A stretch of DNA of 40,520 bases. Source: Dehalococcoidia bacterium (lineage in GTDB: Bacteria > Chloroflexota > Dehalococcoidia > Lucifugimonadales > SHYF01). The translations under genes were made by a program, and so were the position numbers. The notes beneath the pieces were generated by a model that saw nothing but the letters and a program-made list of their open reading frames with translations, searched no databases and was not told the DNA's origin. Numbering within the stretch: position 1 is the first letter of the stretch; every line of letters starts with the position of its first letter. The stretch covers positions 1 through 40,520 of the forward strand of contig JAUSCR010000116.1 of the NCBI GenBank assembly GCA_030651175.1, given 5' to 3'. Below, one piece after another: positions 14,667 through 29,780 of the stretch.

Positions 14667-15608
14667 TCACGATGGTAGCTTTACCCCCACAAACCGCGGG
14701 TATCCCCTAAGAAACTCCTCCGCAGCCTGCGCCTTCCGGCCTTCCAGTTGAACCTCCGCCAAGCCCAGGAGGCCCTGGCCTGCGGCCACAGCCAGGGCGA
14801 AGGCGCTGCCCCTGGGCAGGGCCACAACCTGACCAGGGGGAGCTGTGGACACTTCGCCGGCGGCAGCGCCGTCCAGGACCTTCAAGAGCTTCCCTTCCCA
14901 GCGTGTGTAGCAGCCAGGCCAGGGTTGAAGGGCGCGCAGTCGCCTCTCCAGGACGGCGGCGGGCAGCGACCAGTCCATGTCACCGTCTTCCTTGGTGTAA
15001 AGCCTGGTAATGGTGGCCATCGCCTCCTCTTGAGGGACGGGTTTCAGTTCGCCGGCCGTCCACTTGGGCAGCACCTCCAATAGGAGCTCGGCTCCCAACC
15101 GGAATAGCCGGTGGGTAAGCTCCCCAGCGGTCTCGTGGGGCAGGATGGCTGTCTGCCGTTGAGCCAGAATGTTGCCCGTGTCCATGCCTTCGTCCAAGAG
15201 CATCACGGTGACGCCGGTAACGGACTCTCCATCCAGAAGAGCTGTTATCACCGGGGAAGGGCCGCGATACTTGGGTAGCAGCGAAGGGTGAATGTTCAAC
15301 ACGCCCCGGGGAGGGACGGCCAGCGCCTCCGGCGGCAGGATTCTGCCGTAGGCCGCCACCACGATGACCTCCGGTTGCAGCGACGCCAGTTCCCGCACCG
15401 CCTCCTCGCGCCTTAAGGAACGGGGCTGGAACACCGGCAGCCCCCGACTCAAGGCATAGGTCTTCACTGGGGGCGGCGCAGGCTGGCGACCACGCCCAGC
15501 AGGCTGGTCCGGCCTGGTGTATACCCCCACCAGTTGGTAGTCGCCGGTAAGCAGGCCCTCTATCACCGGAAGGGCGAATTCGGGAGTACCCATGAAGACA
15601 GTTCTCAT
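14667..15608 (-). CDS. fmt: methionyl-tRNA formyltransferase
   Basis: MRTVFMGTPEFALPVIEGLL...GVLNIHPSLLPKYRGPSPVITALLDGE.TGVTVMLLDEGMDTG. Confidence 0.96.
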   Translation of the reverse strand: MRTVFMGTPEFALPVIEGLLTGDYQLVGVYTRPDQPAGRGRQPAPPPVKTYALSRGLPVFQPRSLRREEAVRELASLQPEVIVVAAYGRILPPEALAVPPRGVLNIHPSLLPKYRGPSPVITALLDGESVTGVTVMLLDEGMDTGNILAQRQTAILPHETAGELTHRLFRLGAELLLEVLPKWTAGELKPVPQEEAMATITRLYTKEDGDMDWSLPAAVLERRLRALQPWPGCYTRWEGKLLKVLDGAAAGEVSTAPPGQVVALPRGSAFALAVAAGQGLLGLAEVQLEGRKAQAAEEFLRGYPRFVGVKLPS

Positions 15609-15801
15609 AGCTCACCTGGTGCCTATTCTATGGGAAAAGTGCGTTTGCAAACAACGGTTCGACTCGGCCAAAAACAGTCGGAAAACCCGTCAACTCCCCC
15701 CTTGCACCCCCCCAATGCCCTGGGTGGTATCGTGTCCCTGTTTTGAGTCTTACCCCTTTCGCAACACGCCGCGGGCAGGCGGCTCCAAAAGAAGAGGATG
15801 C

Positions 15802-17187
15802 ATGGCTTTAGGCCCCCAGCAAATTTGGGAGACGAGTCTCGGACAATTCCAGCTCCAAGTTCCTCGATCCAGCTACGACACCTGGTTTAGAGGGACTCAA
15901 GGAATCACCCTAGGGGAGGATTCGCTGACCGTCGCCGTGGCTACTTCATTTGCCGCGGAATGGTTGGAGCGGCGCATGTCCCCTCTCATTCACAAGACAG
16001 TTGCCGAGGTGGCGGCTCGGCCTCTTCGTGTCAGCTTCCAGGTCGTATCGGGCCAGGAGAGGCCGATCCCGGCCAATGGCGCTAAATCAGACCTGGCGAG
16101 GCCACCTTTGCTTTCCGAGGACGAGGCCCCCATCATACCGCTGTACGGCGAGGTGTTGGGGAACCATGTACTCAACCGCCGCTACACCTTCGCTAACTTC
16201 GTCGTTGGAAAAGACAACCAGCTAGCCCACGCCGCAGCTGCCGCTGTGGCCGACCATCCCGGCCAGCAATACAACCCTCTCTTTATCTACTCCGGCGTGG
16301 GCTTGGGCAAAACCCACCTCCTGCACGCTATTGCCTCTCATGTGACGCAAAGGAACTTGACACCAGTCTACGTTACGGCAGAGCAGTTCACAAACGAGTT
16401 CATCCTGGCAATCCGGGAACGGAAGACCGAAAGCTTCCGAGCCAAGTACCGCAGCGCCGACGTGCTCCTCATGGACGACATTCAGTTCCTGGCGGGCAAG
16501 GAGCAGACCCAGGAGGGGTTCTTCCATACCTTCAACGAGCTGCACAACGCCAACCGGCAGATAGTTATCACCTGCGACCGGCCTCCCAACTCCGTTGCGC
16601 TCCTGGCGGACCGGCTGCGCTCCCGCTTCGAAGGCGGGCTCATAGCCGATATTCAGCCACCCCAGCTAGAAACAAGGCTTGCCATTCTGCACTCCAAGGC
16701 CAACTCTTTGGGGGTTGATCTCAGTAGTGATGTGGCCATGAACATTGCCCGGCGTGCCGCGCACGGCATCCGGGAGCTAGAGGGCTATCTTAACCGTGTT
16801 GTGGCCATGGCGCAGTTCCTGGGCAGAGCCGTCTCTCCCGAGGTTGTAGACATCGCGCTTGCCTCCGTCGGCCAGGAGCCGAACACCAAAGCCGTTACCG
16901 CTACCGATGTGATCCAGCATGTTGCGACGTACTACAAAATCTCCCCAGATCGCCTTTGCTCCCGCCCTCAGGACAGGAAGACAACGCAACCGCAAAGGGT
17001 CACCATGTATATCCTTAGCAACGTGCTCCACCACACGCCACGGGAGATTGGAGTTCTATTGGGCAAATGGCATGAGAGGACAGTACGGAACACAGTAAAA
17101 CAAACGGGTGTTGCAGTTGCTCAAGGCAACCCTGTCGCCACAGAGGTTCGACAAATCCTGGCGGGCCTCTCAGTCCCGCTTGGCTAG
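15802..17187 (+). CDS. dnaA: DnaA-family replication initiator (divergent domain IV)
   Basis: Domain I IWETSLGQFQLQVPRSSYDTWF; NPLFIYSGVGLGKTHLLHAIA; DVLLMDDIQFLAGKEQTQEGFFHTFN; LRSRFEGGLIADIQPP; domain IV REIGVLLGKWHERTVRNTVKQ. Confidence 0.9.
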   Translation: MALGPQQIWETSLGQFQLQVPRSSYDTWFRGTQGITLGEDSLTVAVATSFAAEWLERRMSPLIHKTVAEVAARPLRVSFQVVSGQERPIPANGAKSDLARPPLLSEDEAPIIPLYGEVLGNHVLNRRYTFANFVVGKDNQLAHAAAAAVADHPGQQYNPLFIYSGVGLGKTHLLHAIASHVTQRNLTPVYVTAEQFTNEFILAIRERKTESFRAKYRSADVLLMDDIQFLAGKEQTQEGFFHTFNELHNANRQIVITCDRPPNSVALLADRLRSRFEGGLIADIQPPQLETRLAILHSKANSLGVDLSSDVAMNIARRAAHGIRELEGYLNRVVAMAQFLGRAVSPEVVDIALASVGQEPNTKAVTATDVIQHVATYYKISPDRLCSRPQDRKTTQPQRVTMYILSNVLHHTPREIGVLLGKWHERTVRNTVKQTGVAVAQGNPVATEVRQILAGLSVPLG

Positions 17188-17321
17188 CCAGCATCCTGCC
17201 TGGGACATTCCAGCACAATTCCCATCTGTTCCTCCTGCAACAACTCAGGCACAAGGCTGATTCTCTCATTTCCACCAACACCCCTATTACCTCTATTGTT
17301 AAACTAAAGTAATCTATATAT

Positions 17322-18587
17322 ATGTATGACATTCATGTAATTACCATCTCTGGAGGGAAAGGTGGAAATGGAAGCGTTGGCTTCCGTAGGGAGAAATATA
17401 TACCAAGAGGTGGTCCTGATGGAGGCGATGGTGGGAAAGGCGGCGATGTCCTTTTCATTGGGACTAGTTCAGTCAATGACTTATCTCATCTAGTTAGTGT
17501 CCCAAAGGCAGAGGGTGAAAATGCAGAGGGAGGATCTGGGAGGAAACGCAGTGGCCGGGATGGACAGGCGCGAAGCATACGTGTACCACTGGGGACAGTA
17601 ATCTGGGAAAGGAATGATTCCGGAACAACATGGTTAGGCGAAATTGTTAGCGAGGGAGACATTGTTGTAGCTGCACGTGGAGGGCACGGAGGCAGCGGCA
17701 ATAAACGGTTTGCCACACCCACAAACAGGACACCTTGGTTAGCTGAGGAGGGACTTCCTGGTGAGTTGAAGGAGGTTGTCTTAGAGCTGCGCATGAAAAT
17801 AGACGTTGGCATGATTGGAATGCCCAATGCGGGTAAGTCTCAGCTTCTTCAGAAGATCTCCATGGCGCGGCCGGAAGTTGCCAACTATCCTTTCACAACA
17901 ACTGAGCCTGCACCTGGCGTGGTAACGCACGGATGGAAAGAGTTTATCATCGCCGAACTACCCGGTATATTGCCGGAAGCAAATAAGAGCACCAGCCTGG
18001 GCCGCAGCTTTCTGCGGCACCTCTGGCGTGCCAGGGTAGTAGTCCATCTCCTTGACGGCTCTGTGGAAGAACCAACGGCAACGATTACCGGGGTTAACAC
18101 AGAGGTGGCTGCATTTGAGGCATCCTTTCTGCAAAAGCCGCAGGTCATTGTTGTGAACAAAATAGACCTACCAGAGGTTCGGAAGCGTATTCCAGTGCTC
18201 CGGCGCCAACTGGCTCACTATGGTGTAGCCAGACACTTCATCTCGGCGCAGACGGGAGAAGGGGTGGATGAGCTGGTGGAGTACCTTACCAAGCTGCTTG
18301 AGGAGACGCCGCCCGTGCCAAGTCCACTTCCTCCGCCTGTGGTGGTCCCTGTGCTTCACCAGGCTCGCCCAGCCGAGCCGCAGGTAGTCAGAGATGGGCA
18401 AGTGTTTGTGGTATTATCCCCCCAAGCCGAACGAATTGTCAGGCTTCCAGACCTAAGACGTTTCCAGGCAAGGCTACAGCTCCGCAGACAGCTGGCGCGA
18501 ATGGGAGTGACAGGAGCGCTAGAGAAAGCCGGGGTGCAGCCAGGAGACACGGTTAGGATAGGGGTGGTGGAGATGAAGTGGGAATGA
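17322..18587 (+). CDS. obg: GTPase Obg/CgtA
   Basis: ISGGKGGNGSVGFRREKYIPRGGPDGGDGGKGGDV; GMPNAGKSQLL; C-terminal OCT-like region. Confidence 0.95.
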   Translation: MYDIHVITISGGKGGNGSVGFRREKYIPRGGPDGGDGGKGGDVLFIGTSSVNDLSHLVSVPKAEGENAEGGSGRKRSGRDGQARSIRVPLGTVIWERNDSGTTWLGEIVSEGDIVVAARGGHGGSGNKRFATPTNRTPWLAEEGLPGELKEVVLELRMKIDVGMIGMPNAGKSQLLQKISMARPEVANYPFTTTEPAPGVVTHGWKEFIIAELPGILPEANKSTSLGRSFLRHLWRARVVVHLLDGSVEEPTATITGVNTEVAAFEASFLQKPQVIVVNKIDLPEVRKRIPVLRRQLAHYGVARHFISAQTGEGVDELVEYLTKLLEETPPVPSPLPPPVVVPVLHQARPAEPQVVRDGQVFVVLSPQAERIVRLPDLRRFQARLQLRRQLARMGVTGALEKAGVQPGDTVRIGVVEMKWE

Positions 18588-18588
18588 T

Positions 18589-19215
18589 ATGCGAGTAGGC
18601 GTTCTGGGCGGCACATTCGACCCCATACATATCGCCCACCTTATCCTGGCGGAGGAGGCGAGGGTATGCCTGGCCCTGGAGGAGGTGGTGTTTGTTGTCG
18701 CCGGAGCGCCGTGGATGAAGGCCGACTACGCCGTCTCTCCAGCAGACCTACGCCTCCAGATGGTACGCCTGGCAGTGGCATCCAACCCCTTCTTCAGAGC
18801 CTCGGCAGTAGAGGTAGATCGGCGTGGGCCAACCTACACCGTTGATACGCTGGAAACCCTCCGGCAGGAGTGGGGCTCCGAAGCGGACGTCTTCTTCCTT
18901 CTGGGCACGGATGTCCTGGTGGACCTGCCCCGGTGGAAAGACCCAGGGCGCTTTCTGCAACTTTGTACGCCGGTAGCCTTTGCCCGGCCAGGGCTTGGTA
19001 TGTCTGTCCTGGACGAGGTGGAGGTTCAGTTGCCGGGCCTGAAGAAAAGGGTAAAGGTGCTGGAAGGCCCGTCCCTGGGAGTCAGCAGCACGGATATACG
19101 CCGCCGCATTGCCCTGGGCAAGAGCGTCCGTTACTTGGTTCCGGCGACGGTGGAACGGTTCATAGCGGAGCACGGCCTGTACCGTAGCCAAGGGAACAAA
19201 CAGGAGCAGGTCTAG
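18589..19215 (+). CDS. nadD: nicotinate-nucleotide adenylyltransferase
   Basis: MRVGVLGGTFDPIHIAHLILAEEA...LLGTDVLVDLPRW...SSTDIRRRIALGKSVRYLVP. Confidence 0.96.
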   Translation: MRVGVLGGTFDPIHIAHLILAEEARVCLALEEVVFVVAGAPWMKADYAVSPADLRLQMVRLAVASNPFFRASAVEVDRRGPTYTVDTLETLRQEWGSEADVFFLLGTDVLVDLPRWKDPGRFLQLCTPVAFARPGLGMSVLDEVEVQLPGLKKRVKVLEGPSLGVSSTDIRRRIALGKSVRYLVPATVERFIAEHGLYRSQGNKQEQV

Positions 19216-22747: not shown

Positions 22748-22797
22748 TTGGCAGGCCGCAGTTACCTGAGGACAACCCCTGCGCCCTTACTGGCTAG

Positions 22798-23010
22798 CTA
22801 GCCCTTGATGTATTGATTTAGGGTTTTCTTCCAGTACCTTCGGACTTTGGTTCCATCTTTCCAAGTAAAAGTGGTGTCGTCGCAGTGGTTGATTAGTTGA
22901 GAAAAGTCCTGGATAATCTGGATAATATCCCTTCGCGTAGAATTGGCCTGTTGAACTGCATCCATCCTTGTGTGCTCTGCGTTTGCTATTGCATACCAAT
23001 GATGTGGCAT
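22798..23010 (-). CDS. small hypothetical protein (~70 aa)
   Basis: MPHHWYAIANAEHTRMDAVQQANSTRRDIIQIIQDFSQLINHCDDTTFTWKDGTKVRRYWKKTLNQYIKG; A+T-richer than flanks; no family recognised. Confidence 0.5.
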   Translation of the reverse strand: MPHHWYAIANAEHTRMDAVQQANSTRRDIIQIIQDFSQLINHCDDTTFTWKDGTKVRRYWKKTLNQYIKG

Positions 23011-23158
23011 TGAATTACTCCTTTCCGTGAGATTCCTCACCCCATAAAGCTTACGATTATGCTTGGCGAGCTTCCAAGACTGCGCTGGACCCAATTTGCC
23101 TCGGAGCGTTGGTTCAAGAGTCAGGAAGGTGCAGGGAACCTTGGTTCCCGCTGGGGGT

Positions 23159-23210
23159 CTGGGGGTATCCCCCAGATTTCTTTCTTCCCCCTTCCTGGCC
23201 AGGAAGGGGG
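23159..23210. repeat. right two hairpins of three-hairpin repeat (copy 4)
   Basis: CTGGGGG-TAT-CCCCCAG and perfect palindrome CCCCCTTCCTGGCCAGGAAGGGGG. Confidence 0.75.
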
Positions 23211-23481: not shown

Positions 23482-23871
23482 CTATGCTTTCAACTCTTCT
23501 ACCGCGACTATATATCGTATAAATTGGAGATATTTCTCCACCTCAGCAAACTCACTCTCGCTGACCAAAAGTGTGTAAGGTTCATGCACCGGCAAAGCTT
23601 TAATACTCGGTAAAGGCGCGAGATATCGCGTGAGGGCAGCGGGAAGTAGTAGGTAATCGGGGTGAGTGTCAAGTGCCTTAGCTAACTTGAGCAGTACTCC
23701 TGGACGTGTTGGTGTCAGCGTTCCGCACTCAATCTTAGAAAGGGTCTTATAAGGTACTCCCGCTTCTTTGGCTAGGCGCGTGACTGTCCAATCCCTTCCC
23801 AGTCTGAGCTGCTCGAGCTTCTTGCCAAGTTCGGTTTGCCTAGGTTTAGTTCGCCGCCCTCTTTTTGCCAT
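23482..23871 (-). CDS. XRE-family HTH transcriptional regulator
   Basis: GKKLEQLRLGRDWTVTRLAKEAGVPYKTLSKIECGTLTPTRPGVLLKLAKALDTHPDYLL. Confidence 0.9.
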   Translation of the reverse strand: MAKRGRRTKPRQTELGKKLEQLRLGRDWTVTRLAKEAGVPYKTLSKIECGTLTPTRPGVLLKLAKALDTHPDYLLLPAALTRYLAPLPSIKALPVHEPYTLLVSESEFAEVEKYLQFIRYIVAVEELKA

Positions 23872-23877
23872 CGCTCA

Positions 23878-23907
23878 ATAATAAAGCGATGGAGTCTTGA
23901 CAGTCAA
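23878..23907 (-). promoter_or_regulatory. XRE gene promoter (probably leaderless)
   Basis: Minus strand TTGACT-N18-TATTAT, -10 ends 6 nt before the XRE ATG. Confidence 0.55.
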
Positions 23908-23935
23908 CAATATATCTCATACACTGGCGATATAT
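23897..23935 (+). promoter_or_regulatory. promoter and operator-like dyad of the small-protein/HD operon
   Basis: TTGACA (23897) - N17 - TACACT (23920); inverted repeat ATATATC (23910-23916)/GATATAT (23929-23935) brackets the -10. Confidence 0.6.
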
Positions 23936-23983
23936 GAAGCCTCTTGCACATCCGAGTGAATGCAGTTAGGATGGAGGCTCTCA

Positions 23984-24406
23984 ATGGCTATATCAGGTGG
24001 GAAAATGAGTATGTCTGGCGATTATTGGGACTATGTCAATGCACTGTCGTATGCCTTGGCAAAGGGAACGCCTAAAACACCACAACGTTTCACTGGCGAT
24101 CCGATGCAATGGCATCAAGCCATGTATGAGCTGCTACCACGATACAAAGATCGCCTTCCGGTTTTCCGCCACATTGTTTTTGATACTACCCCAGGCAGGC
24201 AGCCATTCAGCGCTGAGGTGGATCATTTCCTACACGTCCTTGCCCAATCGAGGTTACTGAGCGCTCTTAATACGGCATATGCGGTATTTGAATTTAGCGA
24301 TAAGCAAAAAGAGACGATAATCCGCCTGAACGAGAAGCGAGTAAAGCAATACGAAGGCGTTTTGGAGGAGTTAGGAAGGGAGTTGGCTGCGAAGGTTCTG
24401 GTATAA
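23984..24406 (+). CDS. hypothetical protein, first gene of XRE-controlled HD operon
   Basis: ~140 aa MAISGGKMSMSGDYWDYVNALSYALAKG...; GGAGG 6 nt before ATG 23984; no family recognised. Confidence 0.7.
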   Translation: MAISGGKMSMSGDYWDYVNALSYALAKGTPKTPQRFTGDPMQWHQAMYELLPRYKDRLPVFRHIVFDTTPGRQPFSAEVDHFLHVLAQSRLLSALNTAYAVFEFSDKQKETIIRLNEKRVKQYEGVLEELGRELAAKVLV

Positions 24407-24415
24407 GGCGAGGCC

Positions 24416-25966
24416 ATGCCACTCCCTAGTTCGACGGTTACTGTGGAGAGTCTTAGAGCGGAGATTTCAGACTACGTCAGTGAACGGTTCGATGGGTTCG
24501 TTCCAAATCCCCAGAACTCCAATCACCACGCAGATGGAAAGGTAATTCGAGACCCAATTCACGGGTTTCATCACCTGAAAGCATGGGAGGTCGAGGTCGT
24601 AGACTCCCCTCTCTTACAGCGGCTCCGGTCAATTCACCAAAATGGCCTTGTCTTCCTCGTTTATCCTAGCGCGAATCATTCGCGTTTTGAACACAGCCTC
24701 GGTGTGGCGAAGGTAATTCAAGACGTCGTTGGGGAATTAAACACCCCGGGCTTGTTCAGTGAAACAACCGTTGGGGAACTACGGCTAGCGGCACTTCTCC
24801 ACGATTCAGGACATGGTATCTTTTCTCATCTGTCTGAGACACTAATCTATGAGCGGTGGTACGACAATTTCCAGCCCATTAGGCAGATTGCTCCGTTCCA
24901 AGGAAAGACTGTGGGAGAGATAGTGTCGTATCTCCTTGTGACAAGTCCACGATTCCGAGCATTTCTTGAGGATATTAACTCTCGCTACAACCAGAATTTC
25001 AATGTTGATCGTATAGCTGGGTTGATTGTGGGCAACGTGCAAAATCCAACTATGGAGGCCTACCAGCGAGACCTAATCACAGGACCCCTTGATGCAGACA
25101 AACTCGACTATATCGCACGCGATTCTTGCTTTACAGGTATTAGAGCCGAGGTTGACGTTCCACAGATTATTCGCTCCATGAAAGTGTGGGATAGAAGCGG
25201 TTCAAGGTTCCCACGGTCTCTAGTAGTAAAGGTGCAGGGGGTTAGCTTCATCGAGCAGATGCATTTTGCGCGACTGTTATTGTACCCAGCCATGTATCAT
25301 CACCAAAAGGTGCGTGCTATAGAGTGCATGGTGCGGGGAATTTTCGACACTATCTGGGCGGCACCCGATGAAATCCGGGAGCCTGTTCTGAAATTTAGCC
25401 GTATTACTGACTTCCTGCGGCTGACTGAGGGTGAATTCCTTGCCCTTGCCTCCCGAGAACCCTTAATACGCCAACAAATCGAAAAGTTACAGAATCGGAC
25501 TCTTTTTCGTAGGGCCTTACAGGTTTCGGCGTCTTTGATTAGAGGAGAGGTAGAATCAACTCGTTACAGCGACCTCGTAGGGTTGGGCAAGTTCACCCCA
25601 GAAGCCTCAGCCCGACTTAACGAAATACGTAAGACAATCTACGATTTAATCCCGGCGGCGGCGAAGACTGATAGGACATTAAACGACATCTGGGTAGACG
25701 TACCGGATCAGCCTAGTGCCAAAGACATGGAGCTTTGTAAAGTCGATACTGGGGAGTCTGAGCCGGTTCCACTAGACACATTGTTCCCCTTGGCCTCCTG
25801 GCTTAAGGGTTATGCTGAAAACAAATGGACTGCTCATGTTTACGGCTATCCGGACGAAGCTTTTCTCACTAGCCTTAATCGCGCCACCACTGAATATTTC
25901 AACAGTGAGTACAGTCTTACATTCCAAGATAGAGCTACCACTGAATGTAAGCTGACCCTTAGATAA
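24416..25966 (+). CDS. HD-domain phosphohydrolase, SAMHD1/dNTPase-like
   Basis: KVIRDPIHGFHHLKAWEVEVVDSPLLQRLRSIHQNGLVFLVYPSANHSRFEHSLGVAK...LAALLHDSGHGIFSHLSE...DADKLDYIARDS: H..HD..D metal site intact. Confidence 0.92.
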   Translation: MPLPSSTVTVESLRAEISDYVSERFDGFVPNPQNSNHHADGKVIRDPIHGFHHLKAWEVEVVDSPLLQRLRSIHQNGLVFLVYPSANHSRFEHSLGVAKVIQDVVGELNTPGLFSETTVGELRLAALLHDSGHGIFSHLSETLIYERWYDNFQPIRQIAPFQGKTVGEIVSYLLVTSPRFRAFLEDINSRYNQNFNVDRIAGLIVGNVQNPTMEAYQRDLITGPLDADKLDYIARDSCFTGIRAEVDVPQIIRSMKVWDRSGSRFPRSLVVKVQGVSFIEQMHFARLLLYPAMYHHQKVRAIECMVRGIFDTIWAAPDEIREPVLKFSRITDFLRLTEGEFLALASREPLIRQQIEKLQNRTLFRRALQVSASLIRGEVESTRYSDLVGLGKFTPEASARLNEIRKTIYDLIPAAAKTDRTLNDIWVDVPDQPSAKDMELCKVDTGESEPVPLDTLFPLASWLKGYAENKWTAHVYGYPDEAFLTSLNRATTEYFNSEYSLTFQDRATTECKLTLR

Positions 25967-26063
25967 GCTAGTCTTGTGTACGACATCTCAGCCGGAAGGC
26001 CATTTCCCCTTTCGTTTGATTGCCATTGTTACCGATGCCTCCGGCCCGAAATATGCAACACGC

Positions 26064-29702: not shown

Positions 29703-29780
29703 GGGGCGAAGCCCCTTTGGTGGGGGTCTGGGGGTATCCCCCAAATCTCTCTCTTACCCCCTTCCTGGCCAGGAAGGGGG
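29703..29780. repeat. three-hairpin intergenic repeat, copy 5
   Basis: GGGGC-GAA-GCCCC; TGGGGG-TAT-CCCCCA; CCCCCTTCCTGGCCAGGAAGGGGG (24-nt palindrome identical to that at 23187). Confidence 0.8.

Follow-up and report, generated by a model that had tools for sequence, protein, structure and literature searches.

The window analyzed here is a 40,520-nucleotide stretch of a Dehalococcoidia bacterium contig (JAUSCR010000116.1, assembly GCA_030651175.1), and it contains a compact group of three genes in DNA that is visibly richer in A+T than its surroundings. A gene for an XRE regulator of 129 aa (23482-23871, minus strand) diverges from two plus-strand genes, a small ORF (23960-24406) and, 9 nt further on, an ORF for a 516-aa HD protein (24416-25966). 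The GC content is 0.49 across 23.5-26.0 kb, in contrast to about 0.58-0.63 on either side. Pfam searches identified HTH_3 in the regulator (E 3.7e-10) and HD (E 2.7e-7) plus HD_assoc_2 (E 2.7e-15) in the HD protein, whereas the small protein had no credible match. The small ORF encodes 148 aa from the ATG at 23960, but a start at 23984 giving 140 aa is more likely, since GGAGG lies 7 nt upstream of it, residues 1-19 of the longer form are the low-confidence part of the structure model, and relatives align from near this position. The original prediction had described this arrangement, including the 9-nt gap and the intact H..HD..D residues of the HD protein, and the observation was confirmed. 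It is also more than chance, because the small protein has detectable relatives in the same place in more than 30 other loci. In addition, a 98-aa ORF on the minus strand (22798-23094) without any family match lies inside the island and may be another cargo gene or spurious. A terminator-like hairpin follows the HD gene (25993-26014, plus strand), but this evidence is weak as the pattern scan did not score above shuffled sequences.

To characterize the HD protein, we compared it with proteins of known structure. The family profile matched SAMHD1 chains at E ~1e-52, and the AlphaFold model (pLDDT 91.6) matched SAMHD1 structures in Foldseek with E ~1e-16 and probability 1.00. The IRDPIHGF, RLRSIHQNG and SRFEHSLGV motifs named in the original prediction are present and align residue for residue with SAMHD1. 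The catalytic core residues of SAMHD1, R164, H167, H206-D207, H210, H215, D309, D311, K312, Y315 and D319, correspond to R90, H93, H129-D130, H133, H138, D226, D228, K229, Y232 and D236 in the window protein (codons within 24683-25123), and all are invariant in 24 clade members except H133 (23/24). The residues of the allosteric GTP site, K116, D137, Q142 and R145, correspond to K42, D63, Q68 and R71 (codons within 24539-24628), which are kept in 24/24, 21/24, 24/24 and 22/24 clade members, respectively; nucleotide binding itself was not assayed. One deviation is the equivalent of SAMHD1 R333, which is Q250 in the window although it is R in 22/24 members. The roles of these residues are established for SAMHD1, and the activity of the window protein is inferred from them, as neither dNTP hydrolysis nor nucleotide-driven oligomerization was measured. 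It remains possible, though unlikely, that the enzyme acts on another substrate such as a nucleotide signal, an oligonucleotide or an NTP, since the HD superfamily is broad and a sister lineage includes a member with a fused PRTase-CE domain, hinting at other nucleotide chemistry; against this, all SAMHD1 substrate- and metal-binding residues tested are conserved.

The original prediction had named two findings that would count against it, namely that the pair is not conserved elsewhere, or that the HD homologs are solitary housekeeping enzymes without any link to mobile or defense regions. To examine the first, we searched for relatives of both genes; the genomes and loci examined are denoted below by G and L numbers, respectively. 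Only 8 of 294 genomes of the class have an HD relative at E<=1e-30. Six of the seven other than the window have a 127-157-aa gene of the small family immediately upstream (in G072 across a contig break), and the seventh, G281, has a YwgA-like partner instead. A scan of 84,980 bacterial and archaeal species genomes with the HD alignment returned 80 loci, and an iterated profile of the small protein found it next to the HD gene in all members of one clade of the HD tree and nowhere else, 34 of 34 against 0 of 48. This distribution required 2 changes of state against about 26 in shuffles, and 0 of 500 shuffles were as clustered. Three unpaired rows (L047, L052, L053) branch at the base of that clade, and L053 ends at a contig edge. 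The members come from about ten phyla, Chloroflexota, Acidobacteriota, Thermodesulfobacteriota, Myxococcota, Planctomycetota, Hydrogenedentota, Electryoneota, Bacillota, Actinomycetota and Pseudomonadota, and the Chloroflexota copies are scattered among those of other phyla. The small gene is nearly always directly upstream, with gaps that usually run from a 16-nt overlap to 43 nt and a few longer overlaps that depend on the start codon chosen. The exceptions are an opposite-strand copy (L042), a downstream copy (L046) and a broken HD gene (L080, 1410-3025), in which two ORFs lie beside an intact small gene, consistent with loss of a costly effector or with an assembly error. The distances of the two proteins correlate at 0.883 in a mirror-tree analysis (permutation maximum 0.23), so the partners travel together. 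A phylum-wide search with the small-protein profile found only one genome besides that of the window, G479, and its locus also carries the HD gene, with an excisionase-type HTH nearby. A sister lineage of the pair has longer HD proteins of 726-985 aa (L019, L042-L046, L048-L051), and the one scanned (L049, 7866-10577) has a C-terminal PRTase-CE domain (PF24390), possibly linking dNTP hydrolysis to phosphoribosyl chemistry.

The small protein belongs to a new family. Thirty-one members share S84, N104-P and a few hydrophobic positions and have no credible Pfam, PADLOC, PHROG or PDB match, and the window protein has no NCBIfam match either; the other sequence and structure look-ups gave nothing solid. 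Its AlphaFold model is good (pLDDT 87.6) and the predicted fold is winged-helix-like, but Foldseek gave only weak winged-helix hits, the best being the DarTG complex 7yk3 (E 0.22), followed by RTP, TubR and PadR-like structures. We noticed a parallel arrangement in archaea, Chloroflexota and viral contigs, in which a SAMHD1-like HD gene is followed by a YwgA-like gene, usually overlapping (L020, 5295-7210; L091; L104-L107; L113, L121, L123). A profile of these YwgA-like proteins aligned with the small family over the same motif in hhalign at 73.9% probability (E 2.8e-5), whereas shuffled, reversed and unrelated (XRE and HD) controls gave at most 1.7%. This probability is below the usual certainty and does not settle membership; a remote common origin is likely but not proven.

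In G600, a genome of the same genus, the VUT transporter and luciferase-like genes that flank the island are 212 bp apart, with 79-82% nucleotide identity to the window on both sides, whereas they are 3,361 bp apart in the window. Similarity stops and resumes near 22748 and 26057, which, together with the GC dip, define the approximate extent of the recently inserted island. G600 has no HD relative, though it is only 71% complete. G644 has the closest relative within the order (53%) while G622 of the same genus has none. An identical palindromic CCCCCTTCCTGGCCAGG repeat occurs at 23187-23210 and 29757-29780 of the window, and most of it also lies between the flanking genes at the empty site of G600; it is a dispersed intergenic repeat that may have mediated the insertion. 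On viral contigs, the pair sits next to an integrase (L110) and among tail genes (L111). Three different small-protein queries found no match on any of 72,556 plasmids, and HD matches on plasmids and in annotated phages are distant and never cover 80% of the query. A selfish addiction module that stabilizes mobile DNA, with phage defense only a by-product, would fit the small upstream gene, the XRE regulator, the mobile contexts and the remote kinship of the partner to YwgA-like proteins, but addiction modules abound on plasmids, where this pair was not found, and we consider this reading unlikely.

To further examine the link to defense, we inspected the neighbors of the pair. In L028 (2928-17524), an HmaC-type DUF499 ATPase gene is followed by the small gene, the HD gene, a DUF1156 methylase gene (HmaB) and a helicase gene (HmaA), all on one strand, as if the pair had been recruited into the Hma-type operon as an extra effector. 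In L034, from Geobacteraceae, the pair lies between ABC-3C (CTD12 and DUF2326) and type III Mod and Res genes. In L040, from Lachnospiraceae, it lies between CBASS genes, a CD-NTase (E 6e-79 to a solved one) and Cap2, and a transposon-type integrase, and in L051 it is beside ApeA. Thus, neither of the conditions named against the original prediction was fulfilled, and its interpretation as a candidate defense system is supported, with two corrections concerning the regulator and the genomic neighborhood. About four of some 31 genomic loci have clear defense neighbors, and others lie beside ordinary genes or replication genes. Neighbors of unpaired HD genes gave mainly generic families, but the PADLOC comparison covered at most 25 families per set and was not a formal enrichment test. 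The pair is beside gyrB or dnaA/nadD/obg in L024 (G208), L017/L018 (G072), L029, L021 and L032, which belong to Chloroflexota and one Acidobacterium, and within about 5 kb of nadD/obg in the window (15592-19215). Whether this reflects a hotspot near the origin or a functional link is unexplained, and a horizontally spread dNTP-homeostasis or replication-control module acting around replication initiation is not excluded. However, this alternative appears improbable given the very patchy distribution, the empty site in the same genus and the carriage on phage contigs and in Hma, CBASS, ABC-3C and R-M loci.

The other correction concerns the XRE regulator, which is not part of the core. XRE genes are adjacent to the pair in five Chloroflexota loci, the window, L021, G208, G072 and, as a fusion of HTH and an M78 (ImmA-like) peptidase, G059 (L027, 1759-2832), and were not found beside the pair in other phyla. 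The 88-bp divergent region (23872-23959) has promoter-like sequences on the plus strand (TTGACA-17-TACACT, 23897-23925) and the minus strand (TTGACT-18-TATTAT, 23907-23878), with a perfect 7-nt inverted repeat ATATATC/GATATAT (23910-23916 / 23929-23935) over the plus-strand promoter. This is a candidate XRE operator, but the evidence comes from consensus scans only and is suggestive.

Based on these data, the locus is probably a small mobile anti-phage cassette that has not been characterized, with a probability of roughly 0.55. In this view, the HD protein is a SAMHD1-type deoxynucleoside triphosphate triphosphohydrolase that, once active, would empty the dNTP pool and stop phage DNA replication, and the small winged-helix-like protein translated just ahead of it would bind and control it, while in this lineage an XRE repressor over the divergent promoter would keep expression low. 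Restraint in uninfected cells, as an antitoxin would act, is the more likely direction (about 60:40 over activation or sensing), because upstream, translationally coupled small genes before a potentially toxic enzyme are typical of antitoxins and because in Clover a dNTPase needs a partner to suppress its toxicity (PMC12265719); toxicity and its relief by the small protein were not examined here, and the argument rests on gene order and this precedent. The opposite control, in which the small protein is the sensor or activator that switches the HD enzyme on during infection, for example by binding phage DNA or protein, is the main rival but a tentative one. It is favored by the winged-helix-like fold of the partner, by an allosteric GTP site that may make an inhibitor unnecessary, and by the partner gene never being lost from the clade; alone, the HD enzyme would then be idle or need only GTP/dNTP. 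What our analysis demonstrates is the intact family active site and GTP-allosteric residues, the conserved and co-inherited gene pair, the absence of the island from the same site in a same-genus genome, the carriage by phages and other mobile elements, and the repeated placement in defense loci, whereas dNTP hydrolysis, a physical complex, the direction of control, an infection trigger, the XRE operator and phage protection, on which no experimental data were collected, are deduced. SAMHD1 restricts HIV by draining dNTPs, and how such a dangerous enzyme is held in check is a general question. Here a whole clade of bacterial SAMHD1 relatives comes with a constant, unannotated partner, and if confirmed, this would provide a new two-gene immune system, a new way of gating dNTPases and a possible prokaryotic parallel to SAMHD1 regulation.

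Literature searches for a SAMHD1-like or HD pair in defense returned only Clover and a review mention, the main text of DefensePredictor does not mention HD or dNTP enzymes, and no name for this pair was found in the papers searched, although others could still hold one, or in PADLOC, Pfam and NCBIfam. Among known systems, SAMHD1 and the bacterial COG1078-type dNTPases (PDB 2hek, 2q14, the Enterococcus HD protein 2o6i/3irh, and human SAMHD1) share with the window protein the HD core, HD_assoc_2, the catalytic and GTP-site residues and the overall fold, but the window protein has no SAM domain, shows about 20% identity and is of a kind always paired with the small protein. The stand-alone defense dGTPase (PADLOC dGTPase; Tal et al. 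2022 as cited in PMC12409349) is of the same superfamily with expected dNTP depletion, but it is single rather than paired and its model gave only a weak local match (E 2.3e-4 over 57 residues) instead of a full-length one. The HD and YwgA-like pairs have a partner of about 190 aa with a YGPyS..v...l..L...G.l motif, encoded downstream instead of upstream, and the one such HD protein placed in the tree (L091) lies outside the paired clade. Panacea (DUF4065) antitoxins (PMC8832971) are likewise small proteins that neutralize varied enzymes in two-gene modules, and the YwgA-like relatives have a similar LQK..Y...YGP motif; however, none of 31 members of the small family nor two YwgA-like proteins matched Pfam SocA_Panacea, and HD enzymes are not mentioned in the main text of that paper. 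The HTH-M78 fusion in G059/L027 is reminiscent of CapH/CapP regulation of CBASS, in which XRE and M78-peptidase regulators lie beside a nucleotide-acting effector, but the XRE protein of the window has no M78 domain and the effector is an HD dNTPase relative with no CD-NTase. Clover (CloA dNTPase and CloB nucleotidyltransferase; PMC12265719) is also a two-gene cassette of an HD dNTPase and a co-encoded regulator in defense contexts, but membership was rejected because no nucleotidyltransferase was found among the adjacent genes and the small protein, as a rule 125-157 aa, has no such match. It is about as likely as not that the pair represents a widespread, unnamed class of bacterial immune system, spread across about ten phyla and by phages in a compact (about 500-580 aa) and a long (about 730-985 aa) lineage, in which a SAMHD1-type dNTPase is gated by a dedicated winged-helix-like protein; it would then be a protein-gated counterpart of the nucleotide-gated dNTPase of Clover.
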